From: Pseudomonas putida
GTDB taxonomy: Bacteria > Pseudomonadota > Gammaproteobacteria > Pseudomonadales > Pseudomonadaceae
Direction of reading: 5' to 3'
DNA length: 64,000 nucleotides
Assembly: GCF_016406145.1 (NCBI RefSeq)
Contig: NZ_CP066306.1
Location: 3,410,001 to 3,474,000 of the forward strand
The position numbers and the translations under genes are program-made. This document shows positions 25,375-50,313 of the stretch, piece after piece. Below the pieces are notes generated by a model that did not search any database, was not told the origin of the DNA, and saw only the letters and a program-made list of their open reading frames with translations. The number at the start of each line of letters is the position of its first letter. The stretch's first letter is position 1.

Positions 25375-25710
25375 TTAAGGGCGCACCTCTCCTGCGCTGG
25401 AGAGCAAATGTCGTCGCGCCATCCACAGGTTCGACAGGGCGAACAGTTTCACCATCTGCAGTGTTCTTCGCCAAGCCTCGGAAGCGCACTTTGGTATAAC
25501 TCGCTTTTTGACACCGGTATGGCCCGCATCAGCGCAGACCACGTTCTCAGCACGGTGTAGCAGTTTGTCGACTTGAGTCAGGTCCGCGACATTGGCCGCA
25601 GTGACCACCACGCTGTGCACCAGCCCCGAGTCATCGTCGACACCAGTGTCTGGCGCAGGCTTGCGCTTACCGGCGTACTCGGCGTCGCCTAAGGTCATTT
25701 GCTTCATCAT
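25375..25710 (-). mobile_element. Decayed IS5-family transposase
   Basis: Three separated parts of an IS5-type transposase are joined in one frame. The N-terminus is 'MMKQMTLGDAEYAGKRK'; the catalytic centre is 'GVDDDSGLVHSVVVTAANVA' with 'ENVVCADAGHTGVKKR'; the C-terminal end is 'LFALSNLWMARRHL'. About 200 residues are missing between them. An overlapping frame reads 'RFRGLAKNTA', showing a frameshift as well. No terminal inverted repeats were recognised. The element is inactive. Confidence 0.8.
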
Positions 25711-26263: not shown

Positions 26264-26674
26264 TGGTCAGATCCTTGCAGGGATGGTGGGCAGGAAATGA
26301 ATCGCGATTAGTCAAGCATAGGCCTCGGTTAACGGCGCAAACTGATTTAAGTCAAGGTTGACCCTGACACTTCAACAGGTGATGAGATGAAGAAGGGCCG
26401 TGATTACCGCATTTGGCCGGCCTCTACCCCGCCATCGGCAGGGTTGGGGCGCAAGTCGTGTTGTTCGTGGCAGTGAAAAATTCGCCTAGGGAAGTCAGTA
26501 ACATCGATTCATCACGAGACTGGTTGACATAGACCGATCAATATCCCCGCATCTTGAGCGCTGGAAACACCAAGAAATCAGATTTTCCCTCTTCCTTGTA
26601 GTCCATTTCCCAAACATACTCTCGCCGCACTTTTTCCGTTGCGGTCGCTTGGGCTGCGTTCTAGTCTCGGCAGG

Positions 26675-26880
26675 TCGTTGCTCATCAACGATACAGCTTT
26701 GACAGGCTGTGACGGTAAATCACGCAGACGGTCTCCTTTTTATGGTGGCTGTGCGTGTGGGCACGCTTGCGTGCGCCGGAGCTTTTCGTGATTTTACCGC
26801 CGGTCTGTCAACCCACGTACAGCTGCCACCCCACTGTTTGACAGCAGGTGGGTGACGGCCCCGCTAACGGTAAAATCATT
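26675..26880 (+). promoter_or_regulatory. Structured leader of the small-protein pair, copy A
   Basis: Elements in order: hairpin TCGTTG/CAACGA (26675-26691); segment X with TTGACAG and GGTAAATCACG (26698-26724); W, GCTGTGCGTG (26748-26757); hairpin GCACGC-TT-GCGTGC (26761-26774); Y with CGTGATTTTACC and CTGTCAA (26787-26811); W', CACGTACAGC (26814-26823); Z with TTGACAG (26838-26844) and GGTAAAATCA (26869-26878), two bases before the ATG. Y is complementary to both X and Z, so two exclusive folds exist. Pairing with Z would close the start region. The same elements are in copy B with compensating changes. Confidence 0.65.
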
Positions 26881-27123
26881 ATGTTAAAGGTCGTCCCCGA
26901 TCCACCCCACAACCACCACTCCCTCGAAGACACGATCATCCAGGCTGCGGAGTTCGCCCTGTGCGCGCAGAGCGTGGCGCAGCAGGCTGTTTCGCTACAG
27001 CCCAGAACGCCCGCCTCGGTTCTGATGATGGCCTCGATGCATGAGCTCGAGTCGCTACGCGTGCTGCTCGAATCAGCCCTGATCCAGCTGCAGATGCCGC
27101 CCGAGCCGCGCACTCTGCACTAG
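26881..27123 (+). CDS. Small conserved Pseudomonas protein with VPDPP N-terminus, copy A
   Basis: 80 residues: 'MLKVVPDPPHNHHSLED', then a predicted all-helical body with 'AAEFALCAQSVAQQAV' and 'ASVLMMASMHELESLRVLLE'. No signal peptide. It belongs to the pseudomonad small proteins annotated as DUF3077/DUF6124-like; the exact family is uncertain. An in-frame GTG 11 codons upstream exists, but the ATG corresponds to the start in copy B. It is followed 144 bp later by the second small gene. Function unknown. Confidence 0.75.
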   Translation: MLKVVPDPPHNHHSLEDTIIQAAEFALCAQSVAQQAVSLQPRTPASVLMMASMHELESLRVLLESALIQLQMPPEPRTLH

Positions 27124-27267
27124 GCCGTTAAGCCTGTTTTGCCTGGGCGGGCGCTGTCGCCGGCAAGCCCATACGCACAGCGCGCTGCGTGAGACCGGTG
27201 CTGAGCTAAAGGCGGGTTGCCCGGAATGACGTTCGCCCAGGCCCTAAACCTTCAGGGAGAAGACGCA

Positions 27268-27531
27268 ATGACCCCAGATGACACCAAAGTCACTGTCGGC
27301 AAGACCACGTTCTACCAGGGTGAAAACCAGACCCACCCACTGTTTCGCATCGAAGCGGGCATCCCTTGCCAGAATGCCCGCGAACAGGCTTCAGAGCTGA
27401 TGGGCTATGTGCGGGACCTGACCATCGAAGGCTTGATGGACGATAAACCACAGCTGATCTGGGCTTCGCACTACCTGAGTGCGTTGGCCAAAGCACTGAT
27501 GGATGATGCCGAGCTGGGCATGATGCACTAA
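27268..27531 (+). CDS. DUF3077-like small protein, copy A
   Basis: 87 residues from an ATG preceded by GGGAG; a start 15 codons further upstream is in frame with a poorer ribosome-binding site. The body reads 'HPLFRIEAGIPCQNAREQAS', 'ELMGYVRDLTIEGLMDDK' and 'LIWASHYLSALAKALMDDAE', matching the pseudomonad DUF3077 pattern of three helices. It is identical residue for residue to copy B. Small soluble protein of unknown role, always found with the VPDPP gene in this window. Confidence 0.8.
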   Translation: MTPDDTKVTVGKTTFYQGENQTHPLFRIEAGIPCQNAREQASELMGYVRDLTIEGLMDDKPQLIWASHYLSALAKALMDDAELGMMH

Positions 27532-27568
27532 GGGCTGAACTGCCCGACCATGGCGGACATCTGTAACC

Positions 27569-27613
27569 GGGGCCGCTTCGCGGCCCATCGCCGGCAAGCG
27601 CGGCTCCCACAGG
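27569..27613 (+). repeat. REP element at the end of block A
   Basis: GGGGCCGCTTCGCGGCCC hairpin followed by ATCGCCGGCAAGCGCGGCTC and CCACAGG. It has the same form as the REPs at 11459 and 50211 and probably acts as transcription end for the small-protein genes. Confidence 0.8.
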
Positions 27614-27658
27614 TACAGCGCATGCCTGAAGGCTGGTGATTTCCTGGGGCAGTCCATT

Positions 27659-49146: not shown

Positions 49147-49325
49147 TCAGTAACATCGATTCATCTCAAGACTGGTTGACATAGACCGATCAATACCCCG
49201 CATCTTGAGCGCTGGAAACACCAAGAAATCAGACTTTCCCTCTTCCTTGTAGTCCATTTCCCAAACATACTCTCGCCGCACTTTTTCCGTTGCGGTCGCT
49301 TGGGCTGCATTCTAGTCTCGGCGGG

Positions 49326-49522
49326 TCGCTGTTGTTCAGCGATCGGCTTTGACAGGCCGCGACGGTATTATGCATACGGCTTGCCTTCAATGGCGGCTGT
49401 ACGTGCGGGCACGCTTGCGTGCGCCGGAACTTGCATAGTCCGCCGGTCTGTCAACCCATGTACAGCTGCCACCCTTCTGTTTGACAGCGGATAGGTGACC
49501 GCCTAATTGAAGGTACTATGCA
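49326..49522 (+). promoter_or_regulatory. Structured leader of the small-protein pair, copy B
   Basis: Same order as copy A: hairpin TCGCTG/CAGCGA (49326-49342); X with TTGACAG and GGTATTATGCA (49348-49374); W, GCTGTACGTG (49396-49405); hairpin GCACGC-TT-GCGTGC (49409-49422); Y with TTGCATAGTCC and CTGTCAA (49431-49454); W', CATGTACAGC (49457-49466); Z with TTGACAG (49481-49487) and GGTACTATGCAA (49512-49523), which runs into the ATG. X, Y and Z have all changed relative to copy A, yet Y still pairs with either partner. Confidence 0.65.
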
Positions 49523-49765
49523 ATGCTCAAAATGGTCCCCGATCCACCCCACAACCACCACTCCCTCGAAGACACGATCATCCAGGCTGCGGAGTTCGCC
49601 CTGTGCGCGCAGAGCGTGGCGCAGCAGGCTGTTTCGCTACAGCCCAGAACGCCCGCCTCGGTTCTGATGATGGCCTCGATGCATGAGCTCGAGTCGCTAC
49701 GCGTGCTGCTCGAATCAGCCCTGATCCAGCTGCAGATGCCGCCCGAGCCGCGCACTCTGCACTAG
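49523..49765 (+). CDS. Small conserved Pseudomonas protein with VPDPP N-terminus, copy B
   Basis: 80 residues, differing from copy A only at residue 4 (Met for Val, 'MLKMVPDPP'). The start codon overlaps the leader segment GGTACTATGCAA, so a helix with Y would cover both Shine-Dalgarno (GAAGG) and start. All-helical soluble protein of unknown role. Confidence 0.75.
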   Translation: MLKMVPDPPHNHHSLEDTIIQAAEFALCAQSVAQQAVSLQPRTPASVLMMASMHELESLRVLLESALIQLQMPPEPRTLH

Positions 49766-49909
49766 GCCGTTAAGCCTGTTTTGCCTGGGCGGGCGCTGTC
49801 GCCGGCAAGCCCATACGCACGGCGCGCTGCGTGAGACCGGTGCTGAGCTAAAGGCGGGTTGCCCGTCATGACGTTCGCCCAGGCCCTAAACCTTCAGGGA
49901 GAAAATGCA

Positions 49910-50173
49910 ATGACCCCAGATGACACCAAAGTCACTGTCGGCAAGACCACGTTCTACCAGGGTGAAAACCAGACCCACCCACTGTTTCGCATCGAAGCGG
50001 GCATCCCTTGCCAGAATGCCCGCGAACAGGCTTCAGAGCTGATGGGCTATGTGCGGGACCTGACCATCGAAGGCTTGATGGACGATAAACCACAGCTGAT
50101 CTGGGCTTCGCACTACCTGAGTGCGTTGGCCAAAGCACTGATGGATGATGCCGAGCTGGGCATGATGCACTAA
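49910..50173 (+). CDS. DUF3077-like small protein, copy B
   Basis: 87 residues, identical to copy A. The ribosome-binding site GGGAG is kept, although the spacer changed from AAGACGCA to AAAATGCA. Family features are as in copy A; the full identity of the protein against a diverged leader indicates either very recent duplication with rapid leader change or gene conversion of the coding part. Confidence 0.8.
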   Translation: MTPDDTKVTVGKTTFYQGENQTHPLFRIEAGIPCQNAREQASELMGYVRDLTIEGLMDDKPQLIWASHYLSALAKALMDDAELGMMH

Positions 50174-50210
50174 GGGCTGAACTGCCCGACCATGGCGGAC
50201 ATCTGTAACC

Positions 50211-50255
50211 GGGGCCGCTTCGCGGCCCATCGCCGGCAAGCGCGGCTCCCACAGG
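50211..50255 (+). repeat. REP element at the end of block B
   Basis: Identical in sequence to the REP at 27569-27613 and part of the duplicated block. The companion inverted REP of copy A is absent. Confidence 0.8.
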
Positions 50256-50261
50256 TACAGA

Positions 50262-50313
50262 GCGTCGATAGCAGTCAGTCGCGACCGGCTGCTGTCGACC
50301 CATAGCTGCCCTT
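50262..50313. repeat. Dispersed imperfect palindrome, copy 3
   Basis: GCGTCGATAGCAGTCAGTCG, CGACCGG, CTGCTGTCGACCCATAGCTG. The arms GTCGATAGCAG and CTGCTGTCGAC pair with one mismatch. It starts one or two bases after the right edge of duplicated block B. Confidence 0.7.

Follow-up and report, generated by a model that had tools for sequence, protein, structure and literature searches.

How does the leader of two small-protein genes, which lie one after the other on the chromosome of Pseudomonas putida, control their expression? The question arises from a 64-kb window (the whole stretch of DNA analysed, whose positions are used throughout), where the initial annotation noticed that a leader segment Y can pair with either of two others, X upstream or Z downstream, the latter covering a translation start, and took this for the architecture of a translational switch. 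All three segments were recovered at those places when the sequence was re-read. It is close to certain that the leader belongs to the C4 antisense RNA family, and this C4 cassette probably switches off the two small proteins.

Rfam, run at the gathering thresholds, gave only four matches in the 64-kb window, all of them to C4 (RF01695) or c4-a1b1 (RF03163), and both models exceed their curated cut-offs in both of the cassettes that the window contains. In the first cassette, with all features on the plus strand, the C4 RNA spans 26738..26833 (66.8 bits, cut-off 45), and the upstream target c4-a1b1, which corresponds to X, spans 26661..26713, passing narrowly with 47.6 bits against a cut-off of 46.7, that is, by only 0.9 bits. 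No riboswitch family matched within the window at gathering (the initial annotation had likewise recognised no riboswitch consensus), and IsrK (RF01394) was not among the matches listed for 26500-27200 with E values allowed up to 0.1. The C4 and c4-a1b1 motifs are both listed in PMC2864571.

The three-stem fold of C4 is well preserved among the 27 C4s over the cut-off in this genome. In their alignment 94.6% of cells are paired and 17 of 27 pairs show a compensatory change. Of 500 shuffles, none reached the observed value on four of the five measures used, and 5 did so on the fifth. Based on the fold prediction and this alignment, the arms of the outer stem are placed at 26743..26760 and 26812..26828, with GG present at the foot of the stem. 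The segments W (26748-26757) and W' (26814-26823), earlier proposed as a further pair crossing Y, lie within these two arms. In isolation, the predicted lowest-energy fold of the RNA is the C4 fold (-40.0 kcal/mol). Sequence and covariation also place an a2b2 target downstream, at the start of a gene, as in known C4 systems. The icd and ant genes carried by the immI operon of P1/P7 are replaced here by a VPDPP protein that has no match in Pfam and by a DUF3077 protein; our claim is membership of the C4 RNA family, not of the P1/P7 immI operon.

The elements of the cassette can be followed from X to the coding sequences. X contains the b1 site TTGACAG (26699..26705), which pairs with b', and the a1 site GGTAAATCACG (26714..26724). 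The first half of Y is the a' loop (26780..26799), the specificity segment, which includes CGTGATTTTACC at 26787-26798, pairs with both a1 and a2, and differs among all 27 C4s of the genome (27/27); the second half is the b' segment CTGTCAA (26805..26811). Z starts with the b2 site TTGACAG (26838..26844) and ends with the a2 site GGTAAAATCA (26869..26878), whose 3' end lies two bases ahead of the ATG at 26881. The VPDPP protein (26881..27123, 80 aa) and the DUF3077 protein (PF11275; 27268..27531, 87 aa) follow.

Ahead of X, a putative -35 element TTGCGG (26639..26644) and a putative -10 element TAGTCT (26662..26667) are separated here by 17 nt. Of the 80 named loci, 78 have the corresponding pattern ahead of X, namely TTG followed after about 17 nt by TAG(T/G)(C/G)T; a spacing of 15-19 nt was allowed, and 48 loci were counted with a spacing of 17 nt precisely. 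The pair is not among the hits of a plain sigma-70 scan. If it is a promoter, the transcript begins just 5' of X and consequently spans X, C4 and Z. Further upstream, a block at 26579..26626 is nearly identical in the second cassette and strongly conserved 5' of the promoter-like boxes in VPDPP cassettes; aligned with MAFFT in those 78 loci (of 80) that have the promoter-like pair, it gives the consensus TCAGATTT..C..CTTCCTTGTAGTCCATTTCCCAAACATACT. It might serve as an operator or as a binding site for an activator.

Our main reading, in which confidence is high, is that a C4-family antisense RNA and both of its targets are encoded within the leader, and that this RNA is probably excised and blocks VPDPP translation, lowering DUF3077. 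To judge from the conserved promoter-like boxes, one transcript would start just 5' of X. Within it the C4 domain folds into a three-stem RNA, as its covariation shows. Complementarity and covariation suggest that the exposed a' and b' segments would then pair with b2/a2 across the start region of the VPDPP gene. In P1, C4 control includes a polarity step. By analogy with P1, the pairing of C4 here would block VPDPP translation, and polarity would lower the expression of DUF3077. The a1/b1 sites in X would be a second pairing site, which may sequester or titrate C4. On the examples of P1, P7 and Acinetobacter baumannii, C4 would be cut out by RNase P, probably at the foot of the outer stem, and the cut is expected near 26744 (PMC5320573). 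Judged from sequence, translational self-silencing is the most likely action of the cassette.

Then, does each a' loop fit its own targets better than those of other cassettes? Significant covariation in both mutually exclusive helices had been named beforehand as the support to look for, and it was found in two sets of leaders. In 33 non-redundant VPDPP-family leaders with 26 loops (36 leaders, minus L193, which is without C4, and two duplicates; L197 was also dropped ahead of the comparison), the cognate a'-a2 pairing score is 20.5 versus 12.2 for mispaired combinations, and the cognate a'-a1 score is 17.0 versus 12.9, with 0/2000 permutations as high in both cases. The cognate target ranks in the top 5% for 30/33 leaders at a2 and 16/33 at a1, and the distance from the end of the best a2 match to the ATG is 0-9 bases. 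The second set, which overlaps partly in species with the first, comes from the 80 named Pseudomonas loci in public records, 78 of them with a parsable C4; once L237, L246 and seven redundant rows were dropped, 71 leaders with 56 loops remained. Here the cognate scores are 20.5 versus 12.6 for a'-a2 and 17.3 versus 12.6 for a'-a1 (0/2000 permutations for each), with the cognate in the top 5% for 50/71 and 41/71 leaders, respectively. In the same 71 leaders a reversed a' still scores 14.0 against a2 versus 12.5 when mispaired (0/2000), so that a minor part of the covariation signal reflects shared composition. The b segments hardly vary and contribute little to specificity, with cognate means still above all permutations.

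The pairing is less selective when wider stretches are considered. When the 27 C4s of the genome were searched against wide windows, 16 had their cognate site as the best or joint best at a2, 4 at a1, 9 at b1 and 6 at b2, and the predicted duplex energy of the full segment is strongest with the cognate target for 7 of 20 C4s (a2b2) and 10 of 20 (a1b1). With the a' loop alone, both copies in the window are predicted to favour their own a2 (-15.4 and -14.7 vs -9.5 and -6.5 kcal/mol); with the full segment, the C4 of the second copy is predicted to bind the a2b2 of the first (-26.0 kcal/mol) better than its own (-23.4 kcal/mol). The a' loop is particular to each cassette and is matched by the a1 and a2 of that cassette, so that silencing would be largely self-directed, though the predicted insulation between cassettes is incomplete. 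Four C4 RNAs of the genome (L003, L010, L012 and L017) have no clear a1 and a2 targets alongside, and are possibly trans-acting or leftover copies. Conversely, the natural leaders L193, L237 and L246 retain some target sequence without an intact C4; they may be expressed constitutively or respond to other C4s.

A second complete cassette occupies 49312-50263, with near-identical proteins and a different a' loop, which its own a1 and a2 match. Its promoter-like pair (TTGCGG, 17 nt, TAGTCT) is located at 49290..49318, followed by c4-a1b1 (49312..49363, 51.5 bits), the C4 RNA with the different loop (49386..49476, 68.4 bits), the a2 site ACTATGCA (49515..49522), which adjoins its ATG and entered the covariation set as L047, the second VPDPP gene (49523..49765, 99% identical protein) and the second DUF3077 gene (49910..50173), all on the plus strand. 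The two cassettes share about 99% identity over 26906-27600 and about 97% over 26507-26670, and only about 75% over the leader, 26671-26905. Among the named loci, five of the nine pairs with coding identity of at least 97% also have different loops. By these sequence comparisons, specificity appears to change faster than coding sequence; either swapping of leaders among cassettes or rapid, selection-driven change would account for the differing loops. An inverted repeat (GGCCGCTTCGCGGCC, 27575-27620), which we take to be REP-like, lies near the right-hand end of the duplicated segment common to both cassettes, and a remnant of a DDE transposase lies on the minus strand to the left of the first cassette (25375-25710).

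What are the proteins under this control? The VPDPP protein starts with MLKVVPDPP and has no Pfam match even at E 10; it is predicted to form a helical hairpin (mean pLDDT 87), and the DUF3077 protein a beta hairpin plus a helical hairpin (mean pLDDT 92). Neither predicted fold hints at a function. The first nine residues of the VPDPP protein (about M-x-K-[IVL]-VPDPP; 26881-26910 and homologues) are common to otherwise different C4-controlled proteins. Open-licence papers hardly treat DUF3077 and DUF6124, two uncharacterised Pseudomonas protein families: one turned up for DUF3077 and none for DUF6124. A resequencing study of furfural-adapted P. putida (KT2440) reports a mutation in the DUF3077 pseudogene PP_RS01475 (PMC9630843).

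All 18 DUF3077 genes found in the source genome have a same-strand C4 within 1 kb upstream, as do 34 of 43 in ten other Pseudomonas genomes, which gives 52/61 in all, with a chance expectation of 0.08 over 61. For DUF6124, with 45 rows from 11 genomes, 28 have such a C4; six of the 45 are below the family cut-off, and the DUF3077 and DUF6124 models hit some genes in common, so that the counts are not independent. Seen from the RNA, 77 of 116 C4s in the 11 genomes (one sub-threshold C4, G032, was dropped) have a DUF3077 or DUF6124 domain within 1 kb downstream. Other C4 cargo in the genus includes a 52-aa family, a family starting with MNRYMPLTG and Bro-N proteins, as seen in a survey of 90 loci, which are the top-scoring ones and hence biased; the VPDPP flag was raised in 25 of the 90, with at least one false positive (L077). 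In a group of loci with Bro-N-type cargo (L069, L071, L074, L075, L078, L081 and L169, the assignment being tested on the L071 protein alone), the same a' loop is kept in several genomes, unlike in the VPDPP cassettes.

Besides the 27 C4s of the source genome, C4 matches were found in 138 of 149 genomes of the genus, 137 of them over the cut-off. At least 20 matches occur in 55 of the 149 and at least 27 in 34, where the per-genome counts are lower bounds. In a sample of the class, C4 was found in 18 of 274 genomes, the source genome included, and in none of 14 named control genomes. Among viral sequences, 32 stretches with the same b' core were found, of which 27 were run in Rfam and 18 had a C4. 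Downstream of 17 of these 18, an antirepressor-type gene is among the first frames in eight (Bro-N 4, Rha 2, KilA-N 1, AntA 1), a VPDPP protein in three and other frames in six. In four viral loci (L337, L339, L343 and L351) the isrK and a1b1 models overlap 5' of C4. The tested neighbours in the window are ordinary chromosomal genes or without assignment, plus the transposase remnant, with no phage gene. Given these neighbours and the absence of any match of the VPDPP and DUF3077 proteins in named phages, the cassette has the look of a phage immunity module put to use on the chromosome.

The likeness to P1 and P7 draws in part on general background on the P1 operon. C4 of P1/P7 is an antisense immunity RNA processed by RNase P (PMC5320573), and PMC8198154 covers what Icd and Ant do in P1. 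The order a1b1 - C4 - a2b2, the three-stem fold and a target where a small downstream gene begins are the same here (PMC8198154, PMC5320573), whereas the cargo is VPDPP/DUF3077 instead of icd/ant, 27 copies occur in one genome and no phage gene is among the tested neighbours. The Group 1 sRNAs of A. baumannii AB5075 are C4 homologues too, with 21 chromosomal copies whose variable part is the a' loop and RNA-seq that suggests RNase P-like processing (PMC5320573); the excerpts of that paper describe neither cognate flanking targets nor a fixed downstream family, while most cassettes here have both.

Could the pairing of C4 with X and Z mainly terminate transcription early, rather than block translation? 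The order X-Y-Z is that of seqA-CI-seqC in P4, where the CI RNA is likewise an antisense RNA processed from a leader, has complementary sites on both sides and acts on transcription termination (PMC4825925). Moreover, the satellite-like phiAH14b (L480) has a C4 at 89 bits, ahead of a 52-aa family protein, with integrase, AlpA, Rha-like and topoisomerase-primase annotated beside it. However, Z is situated at the start codon, with the a2 match so close to the ATG in the 33 leaders, as translation control predicts. We regard a mainly terminating C4 as possible but rather unlikely; termination and translation effects may also be combined.

A type I toxin-antitoxin-like module, with C4 as the RNA antitoxin and the VPDPP or DUF3077 protein as the toxin, is unlikely. 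The small proteins are probably silenced and the copies are many in each genome, and Icd, a small protein of the C4-controlled operon in P1, inhibits cell division (PMC8198154). However, both proteins are predicted helical hairpins (DUF3077 with a beta hairpin), neither has a PADLOC match at E up to 1, which is no proof either way, and some natural leaders (L193, L237 and L246) lack an intact C4.

It is decidedly improbable that X, Y and Z simply refold in the nascent mRNA in response to translation, a protein or a ligand, with no separate antisense RNA. X-Y and Y-Z are mutually exclusive, energy minimisation of the whole leader predicts a fold other than that of C4, and the isrK-orf45-anrP RNA of Gifsy-1 in Salmonella, in which alternative leader pairing also controls a small frame and a downstream gene, has two conformers by experiment (PMC4825925). 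However, the C4 fold is conserved with compensatory changes that a mere refolder would not need, and neither a riboswitch family nor, at E up to 0.1, isrK has a match here. The Gifsy-1 system also differs in that the short IsrK RNA activates translation in Salmonella (PMC4825925). The initial interpretation is supported in part: the two exclusive helices both covary, and the leader matches the C4 antisense RNA family and no riboswitch family at gathering. That the cassette is a functionless remnant of a decayed prophage is very improbable, for all that C4 is phage-derived and broken-looking cassettes (L005, L017) occur in the genome, given the covariation, the intact frames, the recurrence throughout the genus and tested neighbours that, save for the transposase remnant, are chromosomal or unassigned.

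In the open-licence literature no paper was found that links C4 to DUF3077 or DUF6124 or describes a C4 repertoire in Pseudomonas. Beyond the self-silencing C4 cassette, we put forward a wider picture only tentatively. Pseudomonas would have a genome-wide C4 repertoire in which many cassettes silence their own small-protein operons (DUF3077, DUF6124, VPDPP and others) by way of private loops and specificities shift faster than coding sequences, perhaps via leader exchange. Such a repertoire may serve the chromosome as an RNA-based system of incompatibility or immunity that recognises incoming elements with the same leader, or may free the small proteins once C4 is titrated away or fails to be processed. 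With C4 ahead of most of the DUF3077 and DUF6124 genes examined, it is the probable mode of control of both families, and C4 removal or loop swapping would offer a direct handle on them. A phage immunity device would have become a natural multi-copy set of partly insulated antisense pairs, which could be used to study the evolution of RNA specificity and to obtain orthogonal regulators.
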